Below the pieces are notes generated by a model. It worked only from the letters and a program-made list of their open reading frames with translations, did not search any database and was not told the DNA's origin. Both the position numbers and the translations under genes were made by a program. Shown piece after piece: positions 44,477 through 61,566 of a stretch of 64,000 nt of DNA; within the stretch, counting starts at the first letter, position 1; every line of letters begins with the position of its first letter. Location of the stretch: assembly GCF_001541225.1 (NCBI RefSeq), contig NZ_LMTS01000324.1, positions 1-64,000 on the forward strand, written 5' to 3'. Origin of the DNA: Variovorax sp. WDL1. GTDB taxonomy: Bacteria; Pseudomonadota; Gammaproteobacteria; Burkholderiales; Burkholderiaceae_C.

Positions 44477-45778
44477 GTGAAATCGATTGCCAGACTCATG
44501 GCGTGGGGAACGGCTCTGTTCGCCCTGGCCACCGCTGCCGTCGCCCAACCCCAGCGCCCACCCGAGATCAAGCTCGGCATGAGCACCTTCATGACCGGAC
44601 CGGCCTCGGTGCTCGGCGCGCCCGCCAAGGTGGCGGCCGACATGTGGATCGAGGAATTCAATGCCGCGGGCGGCATCAACGGCACGAAGCTCAGCCCGAC
44701 ATGGATCGACGAAGGGCAGGGCGACGACAAGTTCCTTTCCGAATACCGCCGCCTGGCGCAGGAGCCCGGCGAGAAGCTGATGCTCTCGGCCATTTCGAGC
44801 GGCTACTGCAATGCATTGGCCCCGGTGGCCGAGGACCTGAAGGTCATCAACATCCTCTGGGAATGCTCGACCGAGAAGGTGCTGGAGGAGCGGCCCTACA
44901 AGTACGTGTTCCGTACCGGCCCCAACGCCACGATGGAGATGGTGGCGGCGGTACTGCACCTGCTGAAGCTCAAGCCCGACTTCAAGACCCTCGCGGTGGT
45001 GAACCAGGACTACGCCTGGGGCCGCGATTCCTGGGAGATCTTCCGCAACACGCTGCAGGCGCTCAAGCCCGACGTGAGGATCGTGGCCGAGCTGTTCCCG
45101 AAGTTCGGCGCCTCCGACTTCTCCACCGAGGTCACGCGGCTGCAGGCGCTGCGGCCCGACGTGGTGCTGTCCACCGCCTGGGGCGGCGATCTCGACACCT
45201 TCCTGCGCCAGGCCTCGCAGCGCGGCCTGCTCAAGTCCTCGCAGTTCGTGTTGCCGCTCGCCGACTCCTCGCTCGAACGACTGGGCGACGCAGTGCCTCC
45301 GGGCGTGATCGTCGGCTTCGTGGGCGACGGCTACTTCGCCGACCCCGAATTCGCGAACGACCCCGAGGCACGCGCCTTCGTGCGGAAGTTCAAGGAGCGC
45401 ACCGGGGCTTATCCCAACTTCGCGGTCTACCACATGGTCCAGGCGCTGAAGGCCGCCACGGGTGCCTATCGGCAGGCGATCGCCGACAACAAGGGGCAGT
45501 GGCCGACCACCGACCAGCTCGCGGCCACCTTGCGCAAGCTCGAGTACCGCGGCCTGTCCCGCCCGATCCGGCTGCGCGAGGACGGGCAAGCCCTCCAGGG
45601 GCAGCTGTACGGCGTGACGGCCAAGGATGCATCGCAGCCGTTTCCGGTGGTGCGGCAACTCATCTTCTATCCGGCCGAGATCCTGGCGCCGCCGGTAGGG
45701 CAGAAGTCCGCCGAATGGGTGAAGACGCTCAAGCCGGCGCTGATGCAGAACGGTCAGATCCGGCGCGTGGGCGACTGA
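44477..45778 (+). CDS. livK: ABC transporter substrate-binding protein (LivK/branched-chain type)
   Basis: A 433-residue periplasmic type I binding protein with a signal peptide cut near Ala-Val-Ala-Gln, followed by Ile-Lys-Leu-Gly-Met-Ser-Thr-Phe and Gly-Gly-Ile-Asn-Gly. It is longer than LivK proper and belongs to the broad family used for amino acids, amides and aromatic or short-chain acids, so the name shows family and not substrate. The start is GTG with AGGAG 8 bp upstream. It is the first gene of the 13-gene block. Confidence 0.85.
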   Translation: MKSIARLMAWGTALFALATAAVAQPQRPPEIKLGMSTFMTGPASVLGAPAKVAADMWIEEFNAAGGINGTKLSPTWIDEGQGDDKFLSEYRRLAQEPGEKLMLSAISSGYCNALAPVAEDLKVINILWECSTEKVLEERPYKYVFRTGPNATMEMVAAVLHLLKLKPDFKTLAVVNQDYAWGRDSWEIFRNTLQALKPDVRIVAELFPKFGASDFSTEVTRLQALRPDVVLSTAWGGDLDTFLRQASQRGLLKSSQFVLPLADSSLERLGDAVPPGVIVGFVGDGYFADPEFANDPEARAFVRKFKERTGAYPNFAVYHMVQALKAATGAYRQAIADNKGQWPTTDQLAATLRKLEYRGLSRPIRLREDGQALQGQLYGVTAKDASQPFPVVRQLIFYPAEILAPPVGQKSAEWVKTLKPALMQNGQIRRVGD

Positions 45779-45806
45779 TTCCGAAGACACGAGACGCCCA
45801 TCGTTC

Positions 45807-46712
45807 ATGGATCTGAATCTCCTCCTGCTGGCCACCGTCGACGGACTGTCGTACGCCGGCCTGCTGTTCCTCATCGCGCTCGGGTTGACCCTGATCTGCG
45901 GCGTCTTCGGCGTCATCAACGTGGCGCACGGCAGTCTCTATGCCTTCGGCGGCTACAGCGCCGCCAGCCTGCTGGCCTGGCTGCTGCCCCACACCTCGTC
46001 GACGGCCGTGCTGGTGGCCTCGCTGTTTGCCGCTGCCGCCGTCGTGGGCGGGAGCCTGGGTGCCCTGCTCGAGCGTGGCCTGCTGCGGCACTTCCAGGAC
46101 CGTGATCCGGTGCTGCAGCTGCTCGTCACCTTCGCGGCCTTCATGGTGCTCGAGGACGTGCAGCGCATGGTGTGGGGTGCCACGCCCGTGAACGCGGGCG
46201 ACCTGGCGACGCGCCTGGGCACCACCGAGCTGCTGGGCGTGACCTTCATGAACTACCAGCTCCTGTTCATTCCCGGCGTGGCGCTCGTCGCCTACGCGGG
46301 GCTGCAGTTCCTGCTGCGCCATTCGATCGCGGGACGCCAGATCGTGGCCGTCATCCATCACCGCGAAGTGGCCACGGCGCTGGGCATCAACGCGGCGCGC
46401 GTCGGCACGCTGACCTTCTCGCTGGCGGGCGCGCTCGGGGCCCTGGGCGGCGCGCTCTCGGTTCCGATGACCTCCTTCGTGCCGGGCCTGGGCGCCGAGA
46501 TGATCGTCACCTCGTTCGCCGTCATCGCCACCGCAGGGCTCGGGCAGATCACCGGCGCGCTGGTCGCTGCGGTGCTCATCGGCATGGCCCGCTCGCTCGC
46601 GGTGTACACGCTGCCCGAGCTGGAGGTCGTGATGCCCTACCTGATGATGGTGGCGGTGCTGCTGGTCCGCCCGCACGGCCTCTTCTCCGCCGCCGCGGCA
46701 CGAAGGATCTGA
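45807..46712 (+). CDS. livH: Branched-chain-type ABC transporter permease LivH
   Basis: A 301-residue membrane protein of the LivH family with Leu-Gly-Leu-Thr-Leu-Ile-Cys-Gly-Val-Phe-Gly-Val-Ile-Asn-Val-Ala-His-Gly near the N-terminus and Gly-Leu-Gly-Gln-Ile-Thr-Gly-Ala near the end. It forms half of the membrane channel with LivM. It shares one base with livM. Confidence 0.9.
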   Translation: MDLNLLLLATVDGLSYAGLLFLIALGLTLICGVFGVINVAHGSLYAFGGYSAASLLAWLLPHTSSTAVLVASLFAAAAVVGGSLGALLERGLLRHFQDRDPVLQLLVTFAAFMVLEDVQRMVWGATPVNAGDLATRLGTTELLGVTFMNYQLLFIPGVALVAYAGLQFLLRHSIAGRQIVAVIHHREVATALGINAARVGTLTFSLAGALGALGGALSVPMTSFVPGLGAEMIVTSFAVIATAGLGQITGALVAAVLIGMARSLAVYTLPELEVVMPYLMMVAVLLVRPHGLFSAAAARRI

Positions 46713-47665
46713 TGCGCACCCCGGCTTCCCTCGCAGCCGTGGCGCTCGCGGTCATGCTCCTGCTCGGTGCCGGCTGGGCGTGGCCCTGGTCGCGCATGCC
46801 GATCATCACCTTCCTGTGCTTCGGCCTGGGCGCCCTCGGCCTCACGGTGCTGATGCGGGCTGGCCAGGTGTCCTTCGGCCATGCCATGTACGCGGCCATC
46901 GGCGGCTATGGCACTGCCTTCACGGTGCGCGCCTTTCCCGGCGTCGACGGCCTGGTCGCGGCAGCGGCGGGCGTGGTCGCCAGCCTGGCGGTCGGTGCGC
47001 TGGTCGCTGCCTTCGTGTCGCGCTATCGCGGCATCTTCTTCGGCATGCTGAACCTCGGCCTCTCGATGGTGCTGTTCTCGCTGGCCGGCAAGCTCTATGC
47101 ATGGACCGGCGGCACCGATGGGCTTCGCTTCGAGCGGCCCTCGCTGCTGGGCATGGCGATGGAACGCGGCCAGTTCGAGCTGGCGATGCTGGTGCTGGCG
47201 CTGATGCTGGCCGTGGGCGTCACCTGGATGGTGCAGCGCTACTTCGACTCCTGCTCGGGCCAGGTCATGGTGGCGATCCGCACCAACGAGACGCGGCTGG
47301 AATACATCGGCCTGTCGGCGCGGTGGGTGCTCGCACAGGGCTATGTGCTTTCTGCCGGCCTGGTGGGCCTGGCAGGCGCGCTGCTGGCGCTGGTGCAGAG
47401 CCTGGTGACGCCCGAAAGCGGCTACTGGATCCGCTCGGGCGAGTACGTGTTCATCGCCATTCTCGGCGGCTCGGGCCACGCCTCGGGTGCATTCCTGGGC
47501 GCGGCCGTGTTCGAGCTGATCAAGCTCACGGCAGCGGCCTATTTCACCAACGCATGGCAGATCCTGCTCGGCGCCACCTTGATCGCCGTGATCTTCTTCG
47601 CCCCGCAGGGCATCGTCGGCTGGCTCCGGCGCCCGAAGCCGGCCACGCCGCAGGAGGCCTTGTGA
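46712..47665 (+). CDS. livM: Branched-chain-type ABC transporter permease LivM
   Basis: A 317-residue membrane protein with the LivM signature Leu-Met-Arg-Ala-Gly-Gln-Val-Ser-Phe-Gly-His-Ala-Met-Tyr and Ile-Arg-x-Asn-Glu-x-Arg...Gly in the cytoplasmic EAA-like loop. The start was set at the ATG sharing a base with the livH stop; the longer in-frame region upstream is livH shadow. Its stop overlaps the livG GTG. Confidence 0.9.
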   Translation: MRTPASLAAVALAVMLLLGAGWAWPWSRMPIITFLCFGLGALGLTVLMRAGQVSFGHAMYAAIGGYGTAFTVRAFPGVDGLVAAAAGVVASLAVGALVAAFVSRYRGIFFGMLNLGLSMVLFSLAGKLYAWTGGTDGLRFERPSLLGMAMERGQFELAMLVLALMLAVGVTWMVQRYFDSCSGQVMVAIRTNETRLEYIGLSARWVLAQGYVLSAGLVGLAGALLALVQSLVTPESGYWIRSGEYVFIAILGGSGHASGAFLGAAVFELIKLTAAAYFTNAWQILLGATLIAVIFFAPQGIVGWLRRPKPATPQEAL

Positions 47666-48426
47666 GCGCATCAGCATCAACTACCAGGGAACTGCTGCGC
47701 ACCGAGGGGCTCACCCTGCACTTCGGCGGCATCGCCGCCGCCGACGGGATCGACTTCGCGCTGGCGCATGGAGAGCACCTGGCGGTGATCGGCGCCAATG
47801 GTGCCGGCAAGACCACCTTCATCAACATCTGCACCGGCTACATCAAGCCGAGCCGAGGGCGGGTGCTGCTCGAGGGCCTGGACATCACGCGCAAGGGGCC
47901 GCGGCAGATCGCGCGCCTGGGCGTGGGCCGATCGTTCCAGCTGCCGCAGCTGTTCCTCGACCATACGGTGCGGCAGTGCCTGGAGCTGGCCTCGGTCAGC
48001 CGCCAGGGGCGGCTGTCGCGATGGACCTCGCTGGCGCGCGCCGCGGACCAGCGCGCCGTCGCCGAGATGCTGGAGCTGGTCGAGCTCGCCGGCCATGCGG
48101 ACGATCCGACAGCGGCCCTGCCCGAGGGCCGGCGCAAGCTGCTGGACGTGGGCATCGCGCTGATGCTCGAGCCCAAGCTGGTGATCATGGACGAGCCGAC
48201 CAGCGGCGTGTCGTCGGAAGACAAGCATGGGGTGATGCAGACGATGATGCGCGCGCTGCGGCAGCGCCGCGTCACGAGCTGGTTCGTCGAGCACGACGTC
48301 GAGATCGTGCGCCGCTACGCGACCCGCGTTGCCGCATGGATCGACGGACGCATCGCGGCGGACGGCACGCCGGACCACGTGTTCGCCGACCCGCTGGTGC
48401 GCCGCGAAGTGCTGGGGGAACGCTGA
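47662..48426 (+). CDS. livG: Branched-chain-type ABC transporter ATPase LivG
   Basis: A 254-residue ATPase with Walker A Gly-Ala-Asn-Gly-Ala-Gly-Lys-Thr-Thr and Walker B Leu-Val-Ile-Met-Asp-Glu-Pro-Thr-Ser-Gly. The ABC signature is weak (Leu-Pro-Glu-Gly-Arg-Arg-Lys in place of Leu-Ser-x-Gly-x-x-x). The start is GTG, with CAGGAGG 5-6 bp upstream, overlapping the livM stop. It works with LivF. Confidence 0.88.
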   Translation: MSASASTTRELLRTEGLTLHFGGIAAADGIDFALAHGEHLAVIGANGAGKTTFINICTGYIKPSRGRVLLEGLDITRKGPRQIARLGVGRSFQLPQLFLDHTVRQCLELASVSRQGRLSRWTSLARAADQRAVAEMLELVELAGHADDPTAALPEGRRKLLDVGIALMLEPKLVIMDEPTSGVSSEDKHGVMQTMMRALRQRRVTSWFVEHDVEIVRRYATRVAAWIDGRIAADGTPDHVFADPLVRREVLGER

Positions 48427-49139
48427 TGCTGCGCATCCAATCCATGAGCATCGACCTGGCGGGTCACTCGGTGCTGCGCGGCGTCGATCTCGAACTCGAG
48501 CCGGGCCAGACGGTGGCCGTCGTCGGCCGCAACGGCGCGGGCAAGACCACGCTGCTGCGCGGCATCATGGGCCTCGTCCCGCCACGCTCGGGCCGGCTGC
48601 TGCTCGACGGCGAGGACATCACACGCAGCCCTGCGTCACGCCGTGCTGCCGCCGGCTTCGGCTACGCGCCCGAGGACCGCGTGATCCTGCCGACCCTGAG
48701 CGTCGCCCAGAACATCGCCTTGCCGTGCGAGGTGCTGCGGCTGCCGCGCCACGAGATCCGTCGCCGGATCGACGCGTTGCTTGCCAGCGTGCCGCAGATC
48801 GAGCCGATGCTCGCGCGTTCCGGTGCGGCGCTGTCCGGCGGCCAGGGAAAGATCGTCGCGCTCGCGCGCGCCCTCATGGTCGGCGTGCGCTTCGTGCTGC
48901 TGGACGAACCCTTCCAGGGGCTGGCGCCTGCATTGGCGCGCCAGTACGGGGACGCGCTGCGCGCCTTGCGGGTTTCGCACCCGCAGCTGTGCGTCGTGGT
49001 GACGGAATCGAATGCGGCGCTGCTCGAGGCGGTACAGAGCCGCACGCTGCACATCGAGCGCGGCTCGATCACGGAGGCGGCGGGCGCGACGGACGCTGAT
49101 GAAGTCTCGACATGGACCCAACGGAGAACACACAAGTGA
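48426..49139 (+). CDS. livF: Branched-chain-type ABC transporter ATPase LivF
   Basis: A 237-residue ATPase with Walker A Gly-Arg-Asn-Gly-Ala-Gly-Lys-Thr-Thr, signature Leu-Ser-Gly-Gly-Gln-Gly-Lys and Walker B Phe-Val-Leu-Leu-Asp-Glu-Pro. The LivF hallmark Gly-Tyr-x-Pro-Glu-(Asp)-Arg is present. It shares one base with livG, and its stop overlaps the GTG of the CoA-transferase gene. Confidence 0.88.
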   Translation: MLRIQSMSIDLAGHSVLRGVDLELEPGQTVAVVGRNGAGKTTLLRGIMGLVPPRSGRLLLDGEDITRSPASRRAAAGFGYAPEDRVILPTLSVAQNIALPCEVLRLPRHEIRRRIDALLASVPQIEPMLARSGAALSGGQGKIVALARALMVGVRFVLLDEPFQGLAPALARQYGDALRALRVSHPQLCVVVTESNAALLEAVQSRTLHIERGSITEAAGATDADEVSTWTQRRTHK

Positions 49140-50368
49140 GTACTGAAACGATGCAGCTTCCGCTCGGCGAGGGGCCGCTGCGCGGCCTGGTGGTGGTCGA
49201 TGTCACGCGGGTCGTGGCCGGCCCCTACTGCACCATGATGCTGGCCGACCTGGGCGCCACGGTGATCAAGGTCGAGAACCCCGCCGAACCCGACTACGTG
49301 CGCAGCTTCCCGCCCTTCGTGCAGGGCGAGACCGGCCGGGCCAGCGGGTTCTTCGCGCAATACAACCGCCACAAGCTGGGCGTGAGCCTGGACCTCAAGT
49401 CGGAGCAGGGCCGCGCCCTGCTGCGCGAGCTGGTGCGCAAGGCCGACCTGCTGGTGGAGAACTTCCGACCCGGCACCATGGAGCGCATGGGGCTGGGCTA
49501 CGAGGCGCTGAAGCAATGCAACCCGCGGCTGGTCTACGTGTCGATCAGCGGCTTCGGCCAGACCGGTCCCAACTCGCGCCGGCCGGCCTACGACAACAGC
49601 GCGCAAGCGACCGGTGGCCTGTGGTCGCTGAACGGAGAGAAGGGTCGCCCGCCGCTGCGCGTGGGCACCATCATCGGCGACCTGTCGGCCTCGTTCTACG
49701 CGGCCATCGCAGCCTTGTCGGCAGTGATCCACACGCGGCACAGCGGCGAAGGCCAGTGGGTCGATGTCGCCCAGCAGGACGCGGTCGTGACGCTGACCGA
49801 GCATGCGATCGTCAACTACACGGTGGACGGAGTGGTCGGCGAGCCGCTGGGCAATGACCACCCCTTCGTGCGGCCCTACGGCCAGTACGCCTGCAAGGAC
49901 GGGTTCGTCTTCTTCGGCGCCTACACCGACAAGTTCTGGCGCGAGGCGTGCCGGATCTTCGGCGAGGCATCGCTGGTCGACGACACCGAGATCGACACCA
50001 TGGAAAAGCGCTTCGATCCCGAGACCTACGCGCGCCGGGTGCAGCCGATCGTGCAGCGCTGGTGCGCGCAGCACACCAAGGCCGAGCTCGAGGCCATGGC
50101 CGGCGACATCATTCCGATGACACCGATCAAGACCATTGCCGAGGTCGTCGACGACCCGCACCTGAAGGCGCGCGACATGTTCGTCTCGACGAAGATCGAT
50201 GGGGCTCAGGTGCAGGTATTCGGCAGTCCGATGAAGCTGTCGGCCACGCCGGCTTGCGCAGTCGGCAGTGCGCCCGCGTTCGGCGAGCACAACGAGATCG
50301 TCCTCAAAGGCTGGTTGCGCGTTGCTGCCGCCGACTACGACCGCTACGTCGCCGAGGGAGTGATCTGA
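49136..50368 (+). CDS. Class III (CaiB/BaiF-type) CoA-transferase
   Basis: A 410-residue protein with the family N-terminus [19 protein letters not shown] and the catalytic aspartate region Arg-Pro-Ala-Tyr-Asp. It would activate an organic acid by moving CoA from a donor such as succinyl-CoA. The GTG overlapping the livF stop, with CGGAG upstream, is the likely start; an ATG 24 bp earlier is possible. Its place between an importer and acyl-CoA enzymes suggests it activates the imported acid. Confidence 0.87.
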
Positions 50369-51138
50369 TGGCAATCTCCTATGCGGTGGACGAAGGCATC
50401 GCGCACGTTCGCTTCGACCGGCCCGAGAAGCTCAATGCGCTGACGCTCGCCATGTACGAGGAGCTCGCGCAGTGCTTCGCCCGCGCGAACGACGACCCGC
50501 AGGTGCGGGTTGTGCTGCTCGGCGGCAACGGCGACCGCGCCTTCTGCGTCGGTGCCGACCTGGGCGAGTCGATCCCGGCGCTGGCAGAAGGGCGCTTCGA
50601 CATCTCGGAATGGGATGGCGCCCACATCAAGCAGCCGGGCTTCTACAAGCCGGTGGTCGCCGCGATCAACGGGCTGTGCATGGGAGGCGGCTTCGAGATC
50701 ATGCTGGCCGCGGACATCCGGATCGCTTCGGAGACAGCCGTGTTCGCGCTGCCCGAGGCCTCGCTCGGCTTCACGCCGGCCGGGGGCACCCTGGTGCGGC
50801 TGGTGCGCCAGATCCCCTACGCGCTGGCGATGGAGCTGATGCTCACGGCCGAACGCTTTCCCGCACGCCGGCTGGCCGAGATGGGCCTGCTGAACCGCGT
50901 GGTGCCGCCCGGCGAACTGGAGGCTGCGGCGCTGTCCTGTGCCCGAGGCATCGCGCAGAAGGGGCGCGTGGCCGTGTCGGTCATCAAGGAGGCGGCGCTC
51001 ACGCTCGGGCACCTGCCCTTCGACGAAGCCTTCCGCCGCGAGGCCGTGCTCGGCCAACGCGCCTTCACCAGCGACGAGGCCCGGGAGGGCCTGCGCCGCT
51101 TCCTGTCGCGCGATCGGACCGGGTCCTCGCCGGGCTGA
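50368..51138 (+). CDS. Enoyl-CoA hydratase/isomerase-family protein
   Basis: A 256-residue crotonase-fold protein. Both hydratase glutamates are present (Gly-Gly-Gly-Phe-Glu-Ile and Leu-Pro-Glu-Ala-Ser-Leu-Gly) and the oxyanion-hole residues lie in Ala-Phe-Cys-Val-Gly-Ala-Asp and Gly-Leu-Cys-Met-Gly-Gly. It should add or remove water at an enoyl-CoA. Beside an HMG-CoA reductase, a methylglutaconyl-CoA hydratase role is attractive but unproven. It shares one base with the CoA-transferase gene. Confidence 0.87.
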
Positions 51139-51200
51139 GCCCGTCGCGCCGTTGCATCCGGCTCCCGCCCACTCATTCACCCATCGATTCAGGACGTCAC

Positions 51201-52496
51201 ATGGTTCAGGACTCCCGCCTCCCCAACTTCCGGGCTCTCTCGCCAGCCCAACGGCTCGATCACGTCGCGGTGGCGGCGGGCCTCACCGCCGACGATGTCG
51301 GGTTGCTGAAGACGCCCGGCGCGCTCGCCTTGTCGCGCGCCGACGGCATGATCGAGAACGTGGTCGGCACCTTCGAACTGCCGCTCGGCATCGCCGGCAA
51401 CTTCCAGGTCAACGGCCGCGACGTGCTGGTGCCGATGGTGGTGGAAGAGCCGTCCGTGGTCGCTGCGGCATCGTTCATGGCCAAGCTGGCGCGCGAATGC
51501 GGCGGCTTCGAGGCCTCGAGCACCGGGCCGGTCATGCGCGCGCAGGTGCAGGTCCTCGGCGTGACCGACCCCTATGGCGCGCGGCAGGCGCTGCTGCGGC
51601 AGCGCGACCGCGTCCTGGAGATCGCCAACAGCCGCGACACGGTACTGATCGGACTGGGGGGCGGTTGCCGCGACATCGAGGTGCACGTCTTTCCCGATAC
51701 GCCGCGCGGCGCGATGGTGGTGATGCACCTGATCGTGGACGTGCGCGACGCGATGGGCGCCAACACCGTCAACACCATGGCCGAGGCGGTGTCGCCGCTG
51801 GTCGAGCAACTGACCGGCGGTACGGTGCGCCTGCGCATCCTGTCGAACCTGGCCGACCTGCGGCTGGCGCGCGCACGCGTGCGGCTCACGCCCGAGGTCC
51901 TGAAAACCGCCGAGCGCAGCGGCGAGGAGATCATCGAAGGCGTGCTCGATGCGTACACCTTCGCGGCGGGCGATCCCTACCGTGCCGCCACCCACAACAA
52001 GGGGATCATGAACGGCATCGATCCGGTGATCGTGGCGACCGGCAACGACTGGCGCGCAGTCGAGGCCGGCGCGCACGCGTACGCCTGCCGCAGCGGCCGC
52101 TACACCTCGCTCACGATCTGGGAGAAGGACCGCAGCGGCGCGCTGGTCGGCACCATCGAGATGCCGATGCCCGTCGGCCTGGTGGGTGGCGCGACCAAGA
52201 CGCATCCGCTCGCGCGCCTGGCACTGAAGATCCTCGACGTGAAGTCGGCCCAGGAACTCGGCGAAGTGGCCGTGGCCGTGGGCCTGGCGCAGAACCTCGG
52301 CGCGCTGCGCGCGCTCGCGACCGAAGGCATCCAGCGTGGCCACATGGCGCTGCACGCCCGCAACATCGCGCTGGTGGCCGGCGCCACTGGCGACGAGATC
52401 GACACCGTCGCGCGGCAGATGGCCGCCGAGCACGACGTGCGCACCGACCGGGCCCTCGCGTTGCTCGAGGCGCTGCGCGGCAAAGCTTCGCTATAA
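51201..52496 (+). CDS. mvaA: Class II (degradative) hydroxymethylglutaryl-CoA reductase
   Basis: A 431-residue enzyme. The four catalytic residues fall at Glu83 (Val-Glu-Glu-Pro-Ser-Val-Val), Lys267 (Thr-His-Asn-Lys-Gly-Ile-Met-Asn-Gly), Asp283 (Thr-Gly-Asn-Asp-Trp-Arg) and His381 (Arg-Gly-His-Met), the same numbers as in Pseudomonas mevalonii MvaA. Class II enzymes of this kind run oxidatively: mevalonate + CoA + 2 NAD+ to HMG-CoA. Burkholderiales make isoprenoids by the MEP route, so a catabolic role is expected. No HMG-CoA lyase gene is in the window. The next transporter begins 39 bp later. Confidence 0.93.
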
Positions 52497-52535
52497 CCGT
52501 GGCCTTGTCGTGAGCATCCAGGAGGCAGAACCGTC

Positions 52536-53594
52536 ATGAGCCATACGGCCGTTCCGAAGCGGGATAGCACCGCAGCCGAACTCGCAGGGACTGCAGGGCC
52601 AGCCATCGCCGCGCGCTGGCGTTTTCATGCCGGATGGCTGACTCAGGAGCGCATCGTGCTGCTGCTGGCCGTGCTGCTGTTCGTGGTTTTCAGCCTCGGG
52701 CTGAACGGCTTCGCCGCGCGCGACAACCTGCTCTCGCTGCTGCGCGGGGTGGCCGTGCTCGGGATCCTCGGGCTCGCCATGGCGCTGGTGGTGATCGGGC
52801 GGGGCATCGACTTGTCGCTGGTGGCAGTGATGGCGATCTCGGTGGCCTGGTCGCTGGCGCTGTCCGCCAGCGGCATGTCGCTCGGCATGGCCCTTCTGGT
52901 GGGCATGGCCTTTGCACTGGTGCTGGGCGTGGCCAACGGCCTCCTGATCGCCTATGCCGAGATCCCTTCGCTTTTCTCGACGCTGGCCATGGGCACCTTC
53001 ATCTACGGGCTCGGACGCATGAAGCTGATTCCGCTCGACGTGGTCTATGCGCCGGAGGACGCAGCCTGGTTCAGCCGCATCGGCCAGGGCGAACTCGCCG
53101 GCGTGCCGCTGCCGGTGCTGTTCTTCCTGGCCACGGCTGCGCTGGTGGCCACGTTCCTGCGCTACACCCGCACCGGCCGCTTCATCTATGCCATGGGCGA
53201 CAACTACCAGGCCGCCCGCATCACCGGCGTGCCGGTGCGGCCGCTCGTGGTGCTGCAGTACGCGATCGCCTCGTGCGTGGGCTGCGTGGCCGGTGTCATC
53301 ACCGCAGCGTCGGTCGGCAGCATGAACACCCGCATCGTCAACTCCACCATGATCTACGACGTGATCCTGGTGGTGGTGCTCGGCGGCATCGGCCTGAGCG
53401 GCGGCAAGGGCGGCGTGCGCAACGTCCTGGTGGGCACCGTGCTCATCGGCATCCTGCTCAATGGCATGACGATCATGGACATCCAGTACACGGTCCAGAA
53501 CGTCATCAAGAGCGCCATCCTGCTGGCCGCGCTCGTCATCGACAGCCTGATCAATCCGCGCGACGAGCAGACGGCCCAGCAGGGCGACATCTAG
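52536..53594 (+). CDS. Ribose/sugar-type ABC transporter permease
   Basis: A 352-residue permease of the RbsC family, about ten helices, with Gly-Arg-Gly-Ile-Asp-Leu-Ser-Leu (the conserved Gly-x-Ile-Asp-Leu-Ser-Val-Gly region), Ala-Met-Gly-Asp-Asn-x-x-Ala-Ala-Arg-x-Thr-Gly-Val-Pro and Gly-Gly-Ile-Gly-Leu-Ser-Gly-Gly-Lys-Gly. The N-terminal 30 residues are polar. The start has AGGAGG 10 bp upstream. It opens the second transport set, directly after mvaA. Confidence 0.88.
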   Translation: MSHTAVPKRDSTAAELAGTAGPAIAARWRFHAGWLTQERIVLLLAVLLFVVFSLGLNGFAARDNLLSLLRGVAVLGILGLAMALVVIGRGIDLSLVAVMAISVAWSLALSASGMSLGMALLVGMAFALVLGVANGLLIAYAEIPSLFSTLAMGTFIYGLGRMKLIPLDVVYAPEDAAWFSRIGQGELAGVPLPVLFFLATAALVATFLRYTRTGRFIYAMGDNYQAARITGVPVRPLVVLQYAIASCVGCVAGVITAASVGSMNTRIVNSTMIYDVILVVVLGGIGLSGGKGGVRNVLVGTVLIGILLNGMTIMDIQYTVQNVIKSAILLAALVIDSLINPRDEQTAQQGDI

Positions 53595-53661
53595 CGCCGC
53601 GCACCAAGCCGCCGGACACGGGCCGTACCCTTTTCGTTCAAATGACCCAGGAGACAAGACC

Positions 53662-54639
53662 ATGAGATCCCTTTCCCTCCGACTCGCATTCGTGGGCGCC
53701 GCCTTCGCCATCGGCTGCGCGGCGCAGGCCGCCGACGCCCCTCTCAAGGGCAAGACCGTGGCCTTCGTGCCCACCTCGCTCGGCTACGACCTGACCGATG
53801 GCTGGAACGCCATGGTGCGCGGCCAGCTCGAGCCGCTGGGCGTCAAATGGATCGTGCGCGACCCCAACTGGAGCACCGACGCCGGCGCCCAGGCGATCAC
53901 TTCGCTGATCAACGAGAAACCCGACGTGCTGCTGGTGCAGAACCCGGACATCCAGTCCTACGCCCGGCTGCTCAAGCGTGCCGAGGACGCCGGCATCCGC
54001 GTCGTGCAAGTCAACATGCGATCGGCTGCCAGGACGAGCGCCTTCGTCGGCGCCGACTGGGTCGGCATCGGCGAAGCCATGGCCAAGGCCGTGGTCGAGA
54101 AGTGCAGCCCGAAGACCGGCAGGTCGGGCAAGGTCACCATCGTGCAGGGCGTGCTGACGGCGGCGGCGAGCACCTTCCAGATGCAGGGCGTGCAGGCCGT
54201 GCTGGCCAAGAACCCGGACATCAAGGTGGTCTCGAACCAGGCGGCCGACTGGGACGCTTCGAAGGCCCGCGCCGTGACCGACACCGCGCTCAAGCAGCAT
54301 CCGGACCTGTGCGGCGTGATCGGCTTCTGGGACGGGCAGGACACCGGCACGGCAGCGGCAATCCGCGAGGCCAAGAAGCAGGACCAGGTGTTCCTCGCCA
54401 CCAACGGCGGCGCCGCGCGCACCGGTTGCGCCAACGTGGCCAACGGCAACTTCAGCGCCTACATGACCTACGACGTGAAGCAGCAGTCGCAGGACCTGGT
54501 GCAGGTGATCAAGACGCTGCTGGCGAGTTCGGCGCGCCCGGCGCAGGACATCTCCCGCGTCACGCCCGTGGGGGTGATCACCAAGGCCAGCCTGCGCGAC
54601 GACACGTGCTGGAACCTCGAGGAATACAAGAAGAAGTAA
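53662..54639 (+). CDS. Sugar-type ABC transporter periplasmic binding protein
   Basis: A 325-residue protein with a signal peptide ending Ala-Ala-Gln-Ala-Ala-Asp and a type I (RbsB-like) binding fold: Val-Ala-Phe-Val-Pro, Gly-Trp-Asn-Ala-Met, Gly-Phe-Trp-Asp-Gly-Gln-Asp-Thr-Gly-Thr. It contains several cysteines (Lys-Cys-Ser-Pro, Asp-Leu-Cys-Gly, Gly-Cys-Ala-Asn, Thr-Cys-Trp). AGGAGA lies before the ATG. The substrate is unknown; RbsB-like proteins usually bind sugars or polyols. Confidence 0.85.
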   Translation: MRSLSLRLAFVGAAFAIGCAAQAADAPLKGKTVAFVPTSLGYDLTDGWNAMVRGQLEPLGVKWIVRDPNWSTDAGAQAITSLINEKPDVLLVQNPDIQSYARLLKRAEDAGIRVVQVNMRSAARTSAFVGADWVGIGEAMAKAVVEKCSPKTGRSGKVTIVQGVLTAAASTFQMQGVQAVLAKNPDIKVVSNQAADWDASKARAVTDTALKQHPDLCGVIGFWDGQDTGTAAAIREAKKQDQVFLATNGGAARTGCANVANGNFSAYMTYDVKQQSQDLVQVIKTLLASSARPAQDISRVTPVGVITKASLRDDTCWNLEEYKKK

Positions 54640-54711
54640 GCACCGCGATCACCGCTCACAGCCGTACGGCGGACCGCCCGCTGCTCGGCGCGCCTCTGGA
54701 GTTTGCCGCAC

Positions 54712-56835
54712 ATGTCTGTGTCCCGAAGCATCGCCCGATGGCGATACAAGTATGTGCCCGACCACGTCGTCGGGGAGATCCTGTCGAAGAACTGGATCGA
54801 CAACGCCGTGCCCTTCCTGGCGCTGGCGGTCGTCCTGGCCGTGTTCGGCAACCTGATTCCGGACTTCTTCGGCGCCGCCAACCTGGGGGACACCTCGCGG
54901 CAGCTCGGCGAATTCATCTTCATCGTCTGCGCAATGATGATCGTGATGGTCGCCGGCGGCATCGACCTGAGCGTGGGTTCGAACTTCGCGCTGGGGAATT
55001 TCGTCGCGCTCTTCCTGATGAACGTCGCGCAGTGGTCGCCCTGGGCGGTGATGCCGGCCGTGCTCCTGGTCTGCGCGGCCGTGGGCCTGCTCAACGGCGT
55101 GCTGATCGGCTACCTGAAACTGCGCGCCTTCCTCACCACGCTGGTCACGCTGATCATCGTGCGCGCGGTGGTCGACATGCTGCTGCTCAAGCATGCGGTC
55201 GACATCGCCAGCAACATGCCGGAGTCGGCAGTGTGGGACTTCATCGGCGCGGGTTCCGCGCTCGGGGTGCCGCTGAGCTTCCTGGTGGCGGGCGTGTTCG
55301 CGGCCTGCGCCCACTTGTTTCTCAGCCGGACGCGGCCCGGCTGGCACATCATGGCGATCGGGGGCTCGCGGCGCTCCGCCTACAACGTCGGCATCCCCGT
55401 GCGGCGCACGATCTGCCTGACCTATGTGGGCTCGGGTCTGCTATGCGGCCTGGCGGCCCTGATGTATGCCGCGCGCCTGGGCAGTGCCGGCTCGGACACC
55501 GGGGTCGGCCTCGAGATCATGGCGCTCACCGCCGCGGTCGTGGGCGGCAACAGCCTCGGCGGCGGGCGGGGCTCGGTCGCGAAAGCGCTGATGGGCGCGG
55601 TGGTGGTGGTGCTCGTCACCAACGGGCTGGTGCGCATCGGATTCCAGAGCGGTGCGGGATCGCTGGCACTCGGCCTGATCCTGCTGTCGGCCATTGCGAT
55701 CGACGTGCGCTGGCTCAAGAACAAGCACAAGCTGCTGGCGAAGTCCTATGTGTCGCCCGCCTATCTGGAGCTGCCGCCGGCGCCCCCTACCGAGGCCGGC
55801 TCGGCCTCGCCCTACGCGGTGAACGATCGGCTGCGCGACGTGGCCCTGATCGGCCTCGGGCGGGTCGAAGGGCCGGAGGACGTGATCTTCGACGCGCAGG
55901 GACACCTCTACACCGGCACCCGGCACGGCGACATCGTGCGCTTCTTCGGACCGGAGCACGAGCGCATGGAGGTGTTCGCCCACGTGGGTGGTCATCCGCT
56001 GGGCCTGGCCTTCGATCGCGCGGGCAACTTGCTGGTGTGCATCGCCGGCATGGGCCTCTACAGCGTCTCGCCCGAACGCCGGATCGAGCGGCTGACCGAC
56101 GAGACGAACCGCACGCCCTGGTCCGTCATCGACGACTCGCGGCTCAAGCTGGCCGACGACCTCGACGTGGCGCCTGACGGGCGCATCTTCTTCAGCGAGG
56201 CGACCGTTCGCTACGAGATGCACAACTGGGCGTACGACGCGCTGGAGAGCCGCGGCAACGGCCGCATCATCTGCTACGACCCCGCCACCCGAAGGACCCG
56301 CACGGTGCTGCGCAACCTGGTGTTTCCCAACGGGGTGTGCATGGCGCACGACGGCGAGTCCTTCTTCTTCGCCGAGACCTGGGCCTGCCGCATCAGCCGC
56401 TACTGGTACGCCGGGCCGAAGGCGGGCAGGGTGGAGCGTGTCATCGACGACCTGCCGGGCTACCCCGACAACATCAACCGTGCCTCCGACGGCAACTTCT
56501 GGCTCGCGCTGGTCGGCATGCGGACGCCGTCCATGGACCTGTCGCTTCGCATGCCGGGATTCCGCAAGCGCATGGCGCGGCGTGTCTCGCCGCAGGAGCT
56601 CATCTTCCCGAACATCAACACCGGCTGCGTGATCAAGTTCGACGTGCAGGGCCGGGTGCTGGAATCGCTGTGGGACCTCGGCGGGGAAAACCATCCCATG
56701 ATCACCTCGATGCGCGAGCACCAGGGATACCTCTACCTCGGCGGCCTGCTCAACAACCGGATCGGCCGCCTGAAGCTGACGGACGCCGATCCGGCGTGGA
56801 CGGGGCAGCAGAGCTATTGGGGAGGCGCGGCATGA
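54712..56835 (+). CDS. ABC transporter permease fused to an SMP-30/strictosidine-synthase-like propeller
   Basis: A 707-residue two-part protein. Residues 1 to about 345 are an RbsC-type permease (Val-Ala-Gly-Gly-Ile-Asp-Leu-Ser-Val-Gly-Ser-Asn; Ala-Ile-Gly-Gly-Ser-Arg-Arg-Ser-Ala; Gly-Gly-Asn-Ser-Leu-Gly-Gly-Gly). Residues from about 375 on form a beta-propeller with Leu-Ala-Asp-Asp-Leu-Asp-Val-Ala-Pro-Asp-Gly, Phe-Pro-Asn-Gly-Val and Leu-Pro-Gly-Tyr-Pro-Asp-Asn-Ile, as in SMP-30 lactonases and strictosidine-synthase-like proteins. The ATG with GGAG 10 bp upstream was chosen; a TTG 9 bp earlier is too close to that site. Confidence 0.87.
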   Translation: MSVSRSIARWRYKYVPDHVVGEILSKNWIDNAVPFLALAVVLAVFGNLIPDFFGAANLGDTSRQLGEFIFIVCAMMIVMVAGGIDLSVGSNFALGNFVALFLMNVAQWSPWAVMPAVLLVCAAVGLLNGVLIGYLKLRAFLTTLVTLIIVRAVVDMLLLKHAVDIASNMPESAVWDFIGAGSALGVPLSFLVAGVFAACAHLFLSRTRPGWHIMAIGGSRRSAYNVGIPVRRTICLTYVGSGLLCGLAALMYAARLGSAGSDTGVGLEIMALTAAVVGGNSLGGGRGSVAKALMGAVVVVLVTNGLVRIGFQSGAGSLALGLILLSAIAIDVRWLKNKHKLLAKSYVSPAYLELPPAPPTEAGSASPYAVNDRLRDVALIGLGRVEGPEDVIFDAQGHLYTGTRHGDIVRFFGPEHERMEVFAHVGGHPLGLAFDRAGNLLVCIAGMGLYSVSPERRIERLTDETNRTPWSVIDDSRLKLADDLDVAPDGRIFFSEATVRYEMHNWAYDALESRGNGRIICYDPATRRTRTVLRNLVFPNGVCMAHDGESFFFAETWACRISRYWYAGPKAGRVERVIDDLPGYPDNINRASDGNFWLALVGMRTPSMDLSLRMPGFRKRMARRVSPQELIFPNINTGCVIKFDVQGRVLESLWDLGGENHPMITSMREHQGYLYLGGLLNNRIGRLKLTDADPAWTGQQSYWGGAA

Positions 56836-57992
56836 GACGCACGGCCACTCCGAGCGGCACCGCAGCCGGAGGCGAAGGTGCGCCCGTCAGCACGCTGCCG
56901 CACGGAAGGTTCGGGGCACTGCTCGACCGGCTGCTGGGGCGCGGCTCGCACGCCGTCACCGTGCCGCCCATGGACGGTCCGCTGCGGCCCAACAGCCTGC
57001 TCGACCAGGCGGCCGGCCTCTTGCGCATCGCCTCGCCGGACAACCTCACGCCCTCGCGCGACCAGTTGCTTTTCAGCAGCGGCCCCGAGGTGCATGCACT
57101 CGACCCTGCCACGGGCGCGCTGCGGCTGATGGGTCGTATGGATGGCGATGTGTGCGCGATCACGGCACTGGCCGACGGCGGGGCGCTCGCCGCGATCTCG
57201 GGCGGCGGTCTTCGCACGGTCGGCCAGGCGCCGATGGCCGCCAGCCTGCTGGCCGACGCCGAGCGCCGGGTGATCCGTTGCCCCACGGCCCTGCTGGCCG
57301 CTCCCGACGGCCGGCTGCTGGTCGCCGAGGGCTCGCGTGATCGCCTGCCGCCCCAGTGGCGCGCGGACCTGCTGCACGGCAAGGCGACAGGCGCGCTGTG
57401 GATGCTCGACCGCTGGGACGCGCCCGCGCGCCCCGTGGCTTCGGGCTTGGCGTGGCCCAACGGCATCGCGTGGCACCGCGACGGCTCGATCGTCGTCAGC
57501 GAAGCCTGGGCACACCGGCTGGTGCGCATCGACGGCCAGGGCCGGCGCAGCGTGCTGCTGGGCGATCTGCCAGGTTATCCGTCGAGGATCGCGCCCGCGG
57601 CCGACGGCGGCTGGTGGCTGTGCCTGTTCGCGCCGCGCAGCCAGCTGGTCGAGTTCGTGCTGCGCGAGCGCGAGTACCGCGAACAGATGATGGTGCAGAT
57701 TCCCGAGCGCTACTGGGTGGCGCCGGCGCTGGCATCTGGCCAGGACTTCCGAGAGCCCATGCAGGGTGGCGGCATCAAGTCGATGGGCAGGCTGAAGCCA
57801 TGGGCGCCGACACGTTCCTACGGGCTGGTGTGCAAGCTCGACGCCGACTTTCAGCCGCAATGGAGCGCGCACAGCCGCGCCGACGGGCGCAGGCACGGCG
57901 TGACAAGCGTGGCCGAACTGGGCGGCCGCCTGTACGTGGGTTGCCAGGGGGGCGACGAGGTCGTCTCGCTGGACGTGCAAGCGCGGGAATGA
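56832..57992 (+). CDS. SMP-30/strictosidine-synthase-like beta-propeller protein
   Basis: A 386-residue protein with the same propeller hallmarks as the preceding fusion: Trp-Pro-Asn-Gly-Ile-Ala, Val-Val-Ser-Glu-Ala-Trp-Ala, Leu-Pro-Gly-Tyr-Pro-Ser. No clear signal peptide is seen; the first 35 residues are polar. Relatives hydrolyse lactones, but the full metal site cannot be confirmed by eye. It overlaps the fusion gene by 4 bp, and the ATPase gene starts 4 bp later, so the three are co-translated. Confidence 0.8.
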   Translation: MRRTATPSGTAAGGEGAPVSTLPHGRFGALLDRLLGRGSHAVTVPPMDGPLRPNSLLDQAAGLLRIASPDNLTPSRDQLLFSSGPEVHALDPATGALRLMGRMDGDVCAITALADGGALAAISGGGLRTVGQAPMAASLLADAERRVIRCPTALLAAPDGRLLVAEGSRDRLPPQWRADLLHGKATGALWMLDRWDAPARPVASGLAWPNGIAWHRDGSIVVSEAWAHRLVRIDGQGRRSVLLGDLPGYPSRIAPAADGGWWLCLFAPRSQLVEFVLREREYREQMMVQIPERYWVAPALASGQDFREPMQGGGIKSMGRLKPWAPTRSYGLVCKLDADFQPQWSAHSRADGRRHGVTSVAELGGRLYVGCQGGDEVVSLDVQARE

Positions 57993-57996
57993 AGCC

Positions 57997-59493
57997 ATGG
58001 ACCACTTGATCGAACTCCGGAACATCGGCAAGGAATACCGCGGCGCTCACGCGGTGCGCGACGTCTCGTTGGGCGTGCGGCGCGGAGAGGTGCATGCGCT
58101 GCTCGGCGAGAACGGCGCGGGCAAGTCGACGCTGACCAAGATCCTGGCCGGCGCGGTGCAGCCGTCGCAGGGGCAGATCCTGCTCGAGGGCCGGCCGGTG
58201 AGCTTCGCCACGCCCCACGACGCGCTCGCACATGGCATCGCCATGGTCTACCAGGAAACCAGCCTGGTGCCGTCGCTGACCGTGGCGCAGAACCTCTATC
58301 TCGGCGACGAGCCCTTCTTCAACCGCCTGCGCGGCCTGTACATCGCCGCGCAGCAGTTCCTGCAGCGCCTGAACTTCAACGTCGATCCGACGAAGCTGGT
58401 GTCGCAGCTCGGGGCGGCGCAGCGGCAGATGGTGGAGATCGCGCGGGCGGTGCAGCACGAGGCCCGGCTCATCATCTTCGACGAGCCGACGGCAACCTTG
58501 ACGCCCGAGGAGAAACACCACTTCTTCGGCTTGGTGCAGCGGCTGCGCGCGGAGGGCGTGTCGATCGTCTTCATCTCTCACGCGCTCGAGGAGGCGCTGA
58601 TGATCGCCGACCGCATCACCATCCTGCGCGATGGCGAGCACGTGCTGACCGCCGACGCAGGCGAGATGGACCGCGACCGGATCATCCAGGCGATGGTCGG
58701 GCGCTCGCTCTCGCAGGAGCTCTATGGCAACCGGTCGCAGCGGGTACGCCGCCCGCGCGGCGCAAAGGTGCTGAGCGTGCAGAACCTGTCGATGGGCACC
58801 ATCGTCAAGAACAATGCCTTCTCGCTCTATGCGGGCCAGATCACCGGCATGTTCGGGCTGATCGGCTCGGGGCGCACTGAGACGGCCAAGATCGTGGCCG
58901 GCGTGGCGAAGCGGGATTTCCTGCACGGCGGAGAGATCCTGCTCGACGGCGAACCGGTGCGCTACCGCACACCGCGCCCGGCGGTCAGGGGCGGCGTCGT
59001 CTACGTGACGGAAGACCGCAAGCTCGAAGGCTTCTTCGAGACCTTGTCGATCGCCGAGAACATCTACACCGGACAGCTGGCGTCGTCGCCGAGCCCGTTC
59101 ATGCTCGCGCGGCAAGGCCAGATGCGAGAGCTCGCCGAGGCCTGGCGCAAGCGATTGTCGATCCGCGCGATCGACAGCGATGCGCGAATCGTCGAGCTGT
59201 CGGGCGGCAACCAGCAGAAGGTGGTGATCGCCAAGTCGCTGGTCCAGAGGCCGCGCCTGGTGATCTTCGACGAGCCTACCCGCGGGGTCGACGTCGGCGC
59301 GATCGCCGAGATCCACCAGCTGATCCACTCCCTGGCCGACGAAGGCATCGCGGTACTCGTGATCTCGTCCTACCTGCCGGAGATCCTGACCTTGTCCGAT
59401 CGAATACTCGTCACGCGGCAGGGCCGCGTCGTCGAGGAGTTCGCACCGGAAGCCGCCACCGAAGACAGGATCATGTACGCGGCGGTGCACTGA
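57997..59493 (+). CDS. Sugar-type ABC transporter ATPase with two nucleotide-binding domains
   Basis: A 498-residue RbsA/MglA-like tandem ATPase. The first domain has Walker A Gly-Glu-Asn-Gly-Ala-Gly-Lys-Ser-Thr and Walker B Leu-Ile-Ile-Phe-Asp-Glu-Pro-Thr-Ala, with a variant signature Leu-Gly-Ala-Ala-Gln-Arg-Gln. The second has the expected degenerate Walker A (Gly-Leu-Ile-Gly-Ser-Gly-Arg-Thr-Glu), signature Leu-Ser-Gly-Gly-Asn-Gln-Gln-Lys and Walker B. It powers the two permeases upstream and is the last gene of the block. Confidence 0.92.
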   Translation: MDHLIELRNIGKEYRGAHAVRDVSLGVRRGEVHALLGENGAGKSTLTKILAGAVQPSQGQILLEGRPVSFATPHDALAHGIAMVYQETSLVPSLTVAQNLYLGDEPFFNRLRGLYIAAQQFLQRLNFNVDPTKLVSQLGAAQRQMVEIARAVQHEARLIIFDEPTATLTPEEKHHFFGLVQRLRAEGVSIVFISHALEEALMIADRITILRDGEHVLTADAGEMDRDRIIQAMVGRSLSQELYGNRSQRVRRPRGAKVLSVQNLSMGTIVKNNAFSLYAGQITGMFGLIGSGRTETAKIVAGVAKRDFLHGGEILLDGEPVRYRTPRPAVRGGVVYVTEDRKLEGFFETLSIAENIYTGQLASSPSPFMLARQGQMRELAEAWRKRLSIRAIDSDARIVELSGGNQQKVVIAKSLVQRPRLVIFDEPTRGVDVGAIAEIHQLIHSLADEGIAVLVISSYLPEILTLSDRILVTRQGRVVEEFAPEAATEDRIMYAAVH

Positions 59494-59551: not shown

Positions 59552-60460
59552 TCAGCTGTCGGCGAAGTGCTCGAACAGCAGCCCGCGCAGCCACTGGTTG
59601 CCAGGGTCGCGGTGGAAGCGCGCATGCCAGAAGCAGTTGATCGCGATTTCCGGAAGCTTGGCTGGGTGCGCCCGCGAGACCAGCCCGAAAGGCTCGGCGA
59701 TGCTGCGGGCCAGGCGCTCGGGCACGGTGGCGATCATCGGCGTGGCGCGCAGGATGTGGCCGATGGCGACGAAGTGCGGCACCGTCAGCCGGATGCGACG
59801 CACGATGCCCTGCGCGGCCATCAGATTGTCGACTTGGCCGTGGCCGGTGCACACGGCCTGCACCAGCAGGTGGTCGGCGGCCGAGAAGTCCTTGAGCGAC
59901 AGCCGCGGCCTGGCGGCAAGCGGATGCGCCGCGCCGAAGAGGCACACGTAGCGCTGCCGGAACAGGCGCCGCTGGAAGATGCTGGTCTTTAGCTGCGGCA
60001 GCAGGCCGATGGCGATGTCCACATGGCCGGCCTCCATCGCATCGCGCAGGTTGACAGCGGTGTTGCGCACGGTGCTGATCGTCACTCCCGGTGCAGTGCG
60101 CGCGAGCAGCTCCATGAGCAGCGGCGTGAAGTAGATCTCGCCGATGTCGGTCATCGCGAGCGTGAAGCCGCGCGTGCTGGTGGCGGGGTCGAAGACGGTG
60201 TGCTGGTTGAGCGCGCCGTGCAGCGCGCTCATGGCATAGGCCACCGGCTCCGCCAGCTGCAGCGCGAAGGGCGTGGGTTCCATGCCGCGCGCGGTCCGCA
60301 GGAACAGCTCGTCGCCGAACACGCGGCGCAGCCGCGCCAGCGCATTGCTGATGGCCGGCTGCGACAGGCCGAGCGTCTCGGCCACTGCCGAGACGCGCTT
60401 CTCGGCCAGCATGCGGTCGAAAACGAGGAGCAGATTCAGGTCGATGTCCTTGAGCTCCAT
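59552..60460 (-). CDS. nagR: LysR-family regulator, NahR/NagR-like
   Basis: A 302-residue LysR protein beginning Met-Glu-Leu-Lys-Asp-Ile-Asp-Leu-Asn-Leu-Leu, with the helix-turn-helix Ala-Glu-Thr-Leu-Gly-Leu-Ser-Gln-Pro-Ala-Ile-Ser-Asn-Ala. The stretches Phe-Thr-Leu-Ala-Met-Thr-Asp-Ile-Gly-Glu-Ile-Tyr-Phe, Pro-His-Phe-Val-Ala-Ile-Gly-His-Ile-Leu and Leu-Pro-Glu-Ile-Ala-Ile-Asn are, from memory, close to NahR, the salicylate-responsive activator. It is divergent from the ring-hydroxylase genes, and a NahR-type site lies in the spacer. Orthology to NagR is inferred. Confidence 0.82.
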   Translation of the reverse strand: MELKDIDLNLLLVFDRMLAEKRVSAVAETLGLSQPAISNALARLRRVFGDELFLRTARGMEPTPFALQLAEPVAYAMSALHGALNQHTVFDPATSTRGFTLAMTDIGEIYFTPLLMELLARTAPGVTISTVRNTAVNLRDAMEAGHVDIAIGLLPQLKTSIFQRRLFRQRYVCLFGAAHPLAARPRLSLKDFSAADHLLVQAVCTGHGQVDNLMAAQGIVRRIRLTVPHFVAIGHILRATPMIATVPERLARSIAEPFGLVSRAHPAKLPEIAINCFWHARFHRDPGNQWLRGLLFEHFADS

Positions 60461-60535: not shown

Positions 60536-61543
60536 ATGATCGGCGCCATGGACTTGCACATCCGCCCCCTGGGCCGCACCCTCGACGTTCGCCCTGGCGC
60601 GAACCTGCTCGAGGTGCTGCGCGAGCATCAGGTGCCGGTGTCGTACAGCTGCATGGCCGGGCGCTGCGGCACCTGCCGCTGCAAGCTGGTCGAAGGCCGG
60701 CTGCTCGATGGCGGCCCCGGGCCCGGCGCGATGCGGCCCGAGGGGCTGCGCGAGCAGCACGTGCTGGCCTGCCAGAGCACGCTGACCGAAAGCTGCACCA
60801 TCGAGATCCCCGAGCCCGACGAGGTGGTGGTGCACCCGGCGCGGATCATCAAGGCCACGATCGCAGGCATCGACATGCTCACCCACGACATCCGTCGGCT
60901 GCGCCTGAAGCCGGCCAAGCCGCTGTCCTTCTCGCCGGGGCAATACGCCCAGCTGCAGTTCGCGCCCGAGCATGTGCGGCCCTATTCGATGGCGCGCACG
61001 AGCGGCGACGCGGAGCTGGAATTCCATGTGCGGCGCGTGCCCGGCGGCCGCGTCACCGACTACGTGTTCGAGAAGCTCAAGCCGGGCGACGCGGTGCGCG
61101 TGAGCGGGCCGATGGGCGCGGCCTACCTGCGAACGCGGCACGACGGCCCCATCCTCTGCGCGGCCGGCGGCACGGGGCTGGCGCCCGTGCTGGCGATCGT
61201 ACGCGGCGCGATCGAGGCCGGGATGGCCAACCCGATCCACCTCTATTTCGGCGTGCGCTCGGACGCGGACGTGTACGGGCTCGAGGAGCTGCGCGAGCTG
61301 CAGGCGCTGCATCCGGCGCTGAAGGTGCATGTCGTCGGCGTCACGGGTCCGCTGCGCCCGGGCATGCGCCAGGGCCTGATCACCGACGCCATTCGTGCCG
61401 ACTGGCCGGCCGGCTTCGAGGGATGGCGCGCCTACCTCTGTGGCTCGCCGCCGATGGTGGAGGCGGTCACGCTGCTGCTCGAGGAGCGCGGGCTGCCCGT
61501 CGAGAAGATCCATGCCGATGCCTTCTATCCGCAGGCAGCCTGA
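60536..61543 (+). CDS. nagAa: Ring-hydroxylating oxygenase ferredoxin reductase (NagAa/NahAa-like)
   Basis: A 335-residue electron-transfer protein. The N-terminal plant-type 2Fe-2S domain has [12 protein letters not shown] and a distal Cys-Gln-Ser. The FAD domain has Arg-Pro-Tyr-Ser-Met-Ala and the NAD domain [10 protein letters not shown]. Order and motifs match the naphthalene/salicylate system reductase. The start is uncertain: ATG at 60536, with GGAG 3 bp upstream, or ATG at 60548, where the conserved part begins. Confidence 0.82.
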
Positions 61544-61566
61544 GGCGAAGACAGTAAGGAGACCCC

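Follow-up and report, generated by a model that had tools for sequence, protein, structure and literature searches.

The transport of a nutrient and the first step of its catabolism are usually entrusted to separate proteins. As for transport, the importers closest to the locus described here are those of the CUT2 or ribose type (RbsABC-like), which draw their permease, binding protein and tandem ATPase from the same families; as for the enzymatic side, the relevant relatives are the SSL propellers, which include standalone bacterial SSL proteins and TGW6, an IAA-glucose hydrolase, and the SMP-30/gluconolactonase/Drp35/DFPase propellers. The closest precedent found for the natural fusion of a lactonase propeller is a Deinococcus protein, in which a Cu/Zn-superoxide dismutase is joined to a beta-propeller lactonase with a calcium site made of Glu, Asn, Asn and Asp (PMC12362111); a lactonase-type propeller is there attached to an unrelated protein, as at the present locus, but the partner is a soluble enzyme, whereas here it is a transporter.

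The locus lies in a window of 64,000 nucleotides from Variovorax sp. WDL1, this being the whole stretch of DNA analysed. Its component families are known, and the architecture that joins a permease to a propeller appears new: no description of it was found in the literature, among the listings and the abstract openings consulted, and no description of this permease fusion was found among the matches listed for mevalonate or lactone import and for propeller lactonases. Plasmid records label the fusion "SMP-30/gluconolactonase/LRE family protein", "ABC transporter permease" or RbsC.

The fusion gene (54712..56835, + strand) is a single open frame that starts with ATG, ends with TGA and has zero internal stops; its product of 707 aa was divided, by Pfam, a structure model (mean pLDDT 83.0, pTM 0.67) and conservation, into a permease (residues ~1-346), a linker to ~365 and a propeller that extends to residue 707. 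The Pfam scan placed BPD_transp_2 at residues 69-325, and SSL_N, SGL and Str_synth at 367-411, 426-602 and 482-568, respectively. The ATG of the free propeller, at 56832, falls inside the last codons of the fusion, with a 4-nt overlap of the two genes; this overlap is exactly 4 nt in 50 of the 77 called pairs, the window included, with starts as set by a gene caller that often places them too late, that missed one fusion (locus L085) and that shortened one plain permease (L075). The sequence-only reading, which had described an RbsC-type permease and a propeller in one frame with a second propeller gene overlapping them, was borne out by the ORF reading and by Pfam. It had also considered that a frameshift might hide a stop near codon 350, or that homologues might always be encoded as two genes, and neither was found.

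Regarding the first point, a scan of genome contigs, in which 279 relatives were ordered by their match to the whole query and the best 80 were taken, corresponding to 79 loci, returned the fusion in one frame in 79/79 kept loci; 78 of them were called as genes, and L085 was read directly, with 722 open codons. By their record titles, the kept loci come from Alpha-, Beta- and Gammaproteobacteria, except L090, titled Frankia sp. RB7; its neighbourhood matches that of Bradyrhizobium loci, and it is probably a mislabelled or mixed assembly. As for the second point, when 398 proteobacterial genomes were searched with a profile, 15 full-length fusions were found in 11 genomes (975-1297 bits, the window's own included), and 15/15 matches above 900 bits were full length and stop-free; the next match had 294 bits and covered the permease part only, standalone propellers scored 275 bits or less, and no split homologue was found above 294 bits, with at most two candidates scored per genome. 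In the family to which the window belongs, matches at E ≤ 1e-60 numbered seven, from 6 of 150 genomes (its own included), and each of them spanned nearly the whole query. Because full-length copies in a single frame recur across genome sets, the fusion is, as judged from these comparisons, old and fixed in its lineage; a rare split form may exist, because at most two candidates per genome were scored, the best 80 of 279 relatives were kept, and the ranking favours fusions. On one contig of the same genome (C58, loci L158 and L002), an SMP-30-type gene and an RbsC-type permease gene are separate and ~8 kb apart, which is the usual unfused arrangement.

The fusion is the third gene of a unit encoded on the + strand, in the order plain permease, binding protein, permease-propeller fusion, free propeller and tandem ATPase. 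The plain permease (52536..53594, 352 aa) is of the RbsC type and contains the permease domain alone (BPD_transp_2, 97.9 bits), as had been proposed for this second, extension-free permease; it is followed by a periplasmic sugar-type binding protein (53662..54639, 325 aa; Peripla_BP_4, 142.2 bits), and, after the fusion, by the free propeller (56832..57992, 386 aa), whose SGL match is marginal (26.6 bits for a cut-off of 26.3), and by an ATPase with two ABC domains (57997..59493, 498 aa; ABC_tran in two stretches). Counted from tblastn positions, and wherever the contig extended far enough, the plain permease lay upstream of the fusion in 72/72 loci, the binding protein was present in 76/76, the free propeller was downstream in 75/75, and the tandem ATPase was present in 73/73; the unit is a fixed five-gene cassette. 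The partner permease is propeller-free, with 308-364 aa in 74 of 76 called copies, in agreement with the asymmetric transporter already envisaged; the two shorter calls were clipped, one by the start of the contig and one by the gene caller (L075).

With BPD_transp_2, Peripla_BP_4 and ABC_tran in its permease, binding protein and two-domain ATPase, the cassette falls within CUT2/RbsABC; it did not reach the NCBIfam equivalog cut-offs for named sugars, and no known sugar system was assigned to it. It departs from RbsABC-like importers in having two different permeases, a propeller being attached to one of these, and in having a free propeller besides. A relative from genome G174 (L151) has a plain permease and a binding protein, as the cassette does, and its permease is 46% identical to the fused one over ~229 residues; at L151:4433-6973, however, the permease is in frame with an ATPase (846 aa), and the genes called at this locus include no propeller.

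The membrane side of the fused propeller was deduced from the distribution of charges. Ten model helices were taken as spans, by the authors' choice, counting the half-length one at 267-277 and cutting the last one at 336, though it is modelled to 346; on this assignment, all 16 loop Lys/Arg of the window protein lie on one side, where the stretch behind the last span is counted too, and the opposite side has 0. Over 79 proteins, the mean number of Lys/Arg is 0.01-0.11 per predicted outside loop versus 2.94 at residues 337-350, while the short inside loop 81-87 has a mean of 0.00. Because Lys and Arg are confined to the inside loops, including residues 337-350 that precede the propeller, the charge rule predicts that the latter is in the cytoplasm. 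In this, and in being attached to a permease, it differs from the SSL propellers; indeed, 14 of the 15 standalone SSL proteins taken from the 398-genome search have an N-terminal hydrophobic stretch above 2, because of which they probably work outside the cytoplasm, unlike what is predicted for the fused propeller. Among the free propellers such a stretch is nearly absent, with 1 of 75 above 1.6.

Regarding its fold, the model of the fused propeller matched strictosidine synthase/TGW6 (Z 31.1), DFPase (29.6) and the lactonase RPA3624 (29.2). Its membership of the SSL group follows from SSL_N (59.6 bits) and Str_synth (78.2 bits), with Pfam cut-offs of 18.9 and 25, respectively; these models and the fold (Z 31) are common to TGW6 and to the standalone bacterial SSL proteins, and the fused propellers cluster with the latter in a tree (96/94). 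The identity with the SMP-30/gluconolactonase/Drp35/DFPase propellers is 14-18% only, and the four positions of the metal site align nonetheless. These were mapped in two steps via an SMP-30-type protein of the same genome: the fused-propeller profile was compared with this protein (hhalign 98.8%), which was in turn aligned to DFPase and Drp35. In this way, E389, D482, N540 and D586 align with E21, N120, N175 and D229 of DFPase, the residues named in the PDB titles of DFPase mutants, which are its calcium ligands; at one position Asp replaces Asn, as in Drp35, where D482 aligns with D138. Among the fused proteins (the window and 78 loci, with L085 left out), E389, D482, D483 and N540 are present in 79/79 and D586 in 78/79. 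The fused copy has the four-residue site of lactonases and DFPase (Glu, Asn/Asp, Asn, Asp), and the inspection of the ligands recommended by the sequence-only reading points to a lactonase-type metal site, with E389, D482, N540 and D586 kept.

With modest confidence, we lean towards a CUT2-type importer with a built-in, cytosolic and metal-dependent lactonase-like propeller, proposed to open an imported lactone. The periplasmic binding protein would feed an asymmetric transporter made of the plain permease, the permease-propeller fusion and the tandem ATPase; the substrate would enter as a lactone, and the fused propeller would take the molecule leaving the channel and presumably hydrolyse its ring. 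The open hydroxy acid would then be trapped in the cell for the adjoining catabolic enzymes, while the free propeller could dock on the fused propeller or on the plain permease, as a non-catalytic partner with a structural or regulatory role. It should be noted that the standalone relatives of the propeller seem to act outside the cytoplasm, which speaks against this proposal.

As for the free propeller, its model has a pLDDT of 86.5 and it aligns to the fused propeller with an hhalign value of 99.9%. At the equivalents of the four metal-site positions, taken in turn, 7 of the 75 full-length copies have Glu, 11 have Asp/Asn, 22 have Asn and 0 have Asp, two truncated copies being excluded, so the four-residue site of lactonases and DFPase is not complete in the free copy. 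Because its metal site is mostly lost, this protein is probably not a second lactonase, and it looks like a conserved pseudo-enzyme; yet the Glu position is Asp in 59/75, and 75/75 retain a His that is conserved among the fused copies, so that some ligand binding is possible. In a tree built from 16 of the 79 fused copies, 16 of the 75 free copies, 15 standalone SSL proteins and 4 SGL proteins, the end branches measured 0.34-1.13 for the free copies versus 0.06-0.22 for the fused ones (16 each); the free copies come together on a single long branch, for which the tool warns of long-branch effects, and tandem duplication is one possible origin of the two propellers.

This second propeller bears on the strongest rival of the ring-opening importer, namely that the cytoplasmic propellers act as a sensor or valve that binds the ligand or its product and throttles the transporter by trans-inhibition, in a non-catalytic role for which the fused copy would use its metal site to bind the ligand. 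A propeller that is always present beside the fusion and has lost most of its metal site is what would be expected of a binding or regulatory part, and the adjoining catabolic genes differ between loci; however, the near-invariance of the site in the fused copy (78-79/79) goes beyond the needs of mere binding, and we regard this explanation as unlikely.

Somewhat less probable again is that the fused propeller is another kind of metal-dependent hydrolase, which would cleave esters, conjugates or phosphotriesters in a reaction coupled to import. Its metal site can be aligned with those of both DFPase and lactonases, TGW6 is its nearest solved hydrolase-like relative by sequence, and the fact that a lactonase-type site can also serve esters or phosphotriesters weakens the lactonase assignment itself. 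Conversely, D482 matches the lactonase Drp35, and metallo-beta-lactamase-fold hydrolases lie beside the cassette in 12/80 loci (raw count), one scanned representative being AidB-lactonase-like, though below the cut-off.

A strictosidine-synthase-like condensation is very improbable: the top Pfam and PDB sequence matches are indeed strictosidine-synthase-like, but Glu309, the catalytic residue of strictosidine synthase, aligns with T665, albeit near the end of the alignment, where it is weak, and the fused propeller keeps metal-site residues that are absent from that enzyme, so this chemistry is disfavoured. Finally, an artefact of assembly or frameshift with a lost stop, or two genes joined by chance, is ruled out for practical purposes by the conservation of the fusion, which is a single frame in each of the 79 kept loci and in all 15 strong matches of a separate genome set, and by public plasmid records that annotate permease and propeller as a single gene.

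Returning to the ring-opening importer, a candidate substrate for the window member comes from the genes next to it. Upstream of the cassette and on the same + strand are a five-gene LIV-type ABC importer (44498..49139; Peripla_BP_6, two BPD_transp_2, and ATPases recognised by BLAST clustering only), a family III CoA-transferase of the CaiB type (49112..50368; CoA_transf_3, 398.3 bits), an enoyl-CoA hydratase/isomerase (ECH) family protein (50368..51138; ECH_1, 188.5 bits) and a degradative HMG-CoA reductase (51201..52496, scanned from 51180; TIGR00532, 424.9 bits for a cut-off of 259.95), the enzyme that marks mevalonate operons of the P. mevalonii mvaAB type. These genes and the cassette form a co-directional, tightly spaced run (44498-59493), ended by a LysR-type regulator on the − strand (59552..60460; HTH_1, LysR_substrate); because the LIV-type importer and the cassette share this run, one operon may hold two importers. 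Beyond the LysR gene, at 60536-63308, there is a Rieske-type ring-hydroxylating oxygenase (alpha and beta) with a ferredoxin-reductase gene. HMG-CoA lyase is absent from the window operon, and its homologues in the same genome are on other contigs, the best being 49% identical. At the Alcanivorax locus L013, instead, the genes beside the cassette are those for HMG-CoA lyase (411.5 bits for a cut-off of 246), HMG-CoA reductase, CaiB and ECH, in a gene order different from that of the window and with a 3-oxoacid CoA-transferase subunit nearby, an arrangement that fits the breakdown of mevalonate to acetoacetate and acetyl-CoA.

Because the cassette adjoins a degradative HMG-CoA reductase in the window and in L013, mevalonate and/or mevalonolactone are put forward as the substrate of the window member, a guess whose chances we put slightly below even; in that case, mevalonolactone or mevalonate would be passed to the adjoining reductase. 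As a substrate of the whole family mevalonate was rejected, since HMG-CoA reductase is beside the cassette in just 2/80 loci, the same two. The fusion closest to that of the window (L012, 85%) is on a contig too short to show neighbours. From the opposite direction, a degradative HMG-CoA reductase occurs in 12 of 399 genomes of the order, its own included, and the cassette was found in 1 of 11 reductase neighbourhoods, that of the window only; these neighbourhoods are the window and 10 of the 12 other matches, L108 and L109 being short loci on truncated contigs. It also weighs against the mevalonate link that the window operon already contains a LIV-type importer, and that the operon most like it (L147) combines this importer with CaiB, ECH and the reductase but lacks the cassette; because of this, the cassette appears dispensable for some mevalonate operons. 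Further downstream at L147, on the opposite strand, is an ordinary CUT2-like importer without propellers. In six other loci (L141-L144, L146 and L148), HMG-CoA reductase is followed by a small membrane-protein-like gene and by a putative sodium-solute symporter, and from its sequence this two-gene symporter is a candidate for a second kind of mevalonate transporter.

Some fungal siderophore enzymes handle anhydromevalonate-type compounds; by analogy, and more speculatively, CaiB and ECH might act on anhydromevalonate-type lactones. According to PMC13064465, the ring of mevalonolactone opens spontaneously in water, and therefore the need for an enzyme is weaker in the mevalonate case. A 2025 paper evolved a mevalonate or mevalonolactone importer in yeast and notes that several bacterial species have systems for importing mevalonate (PMC12405511).

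Elsewhere, the outer neighbours of the cassette vary among the loci whose representatives were scanned, and several of their labels (CitE-, carboxymuconolactone-decarboxylase-, hydroxyisobutyrate-dehydrogenase- and AidB-like) are below the NCBIfam cut-off of the family named. In one type of neighbourhood an AraC regulator accompanies a fusion of a CoA ligase and a crotonase; another has alcohol and aldehyde dehydrogenases, CaiB, an acyl-CoA dehydrogenase, MmgE/PrpD and a CitE-like lyase; a third has MmgE/PrpD, carboxymuconolactone-decarboxylase-like and hydroxyisobutyrate-dehydrogenase-like genes, and the metallo-beta-lactamase-fold hydrolases; and a further one has an acyl-CoA ligase with a thiolase. 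The ligase-crotonase fusion directly follows the cassette at L034:14684-17350 (888 aa, Pfam), and 8 loci, L034 included, have a gene of this cluster that encodes 860-895 aa; because five other loci carry a long and a short gene in its place, this second fusion has split forms. On plasmid pPAT9B04 of Pantoea sp. At-9b (L152), the cassette is near dihydroxyacetone-kinase-family, triose-phosphate-isomerase-family and phosphogluconate-dehydrogenase-like genes, and because of these families a substrate of the tetrose or polyol type is hinted at.

In conclusion, a fusion that is fixed across Alpha-, Beta- and Gammaproteobacteria, with a conserved site in one of the propellers and with a second propeller that is largely dead, opens transport-coupled catalysis to direct testing, and it would give meaning to a protein labelled only by family in plasmid records. 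The window member is a candidate natural importer of mevalonate or mevalonolactone. The most extensive form of the proposal is tentative and, taken as a whole, rather doubtful: these would be widespread ABC importers that carry a permease-fused active lactonase and an obligate pseudo-lactonase, in which ring opening at the channel exit traps the substrate and helps to drive or gate its import, with the window's own being an importer of mevalonolactone or mevalonate. If true, cells may open ring-shaped nutrients during their uptake.
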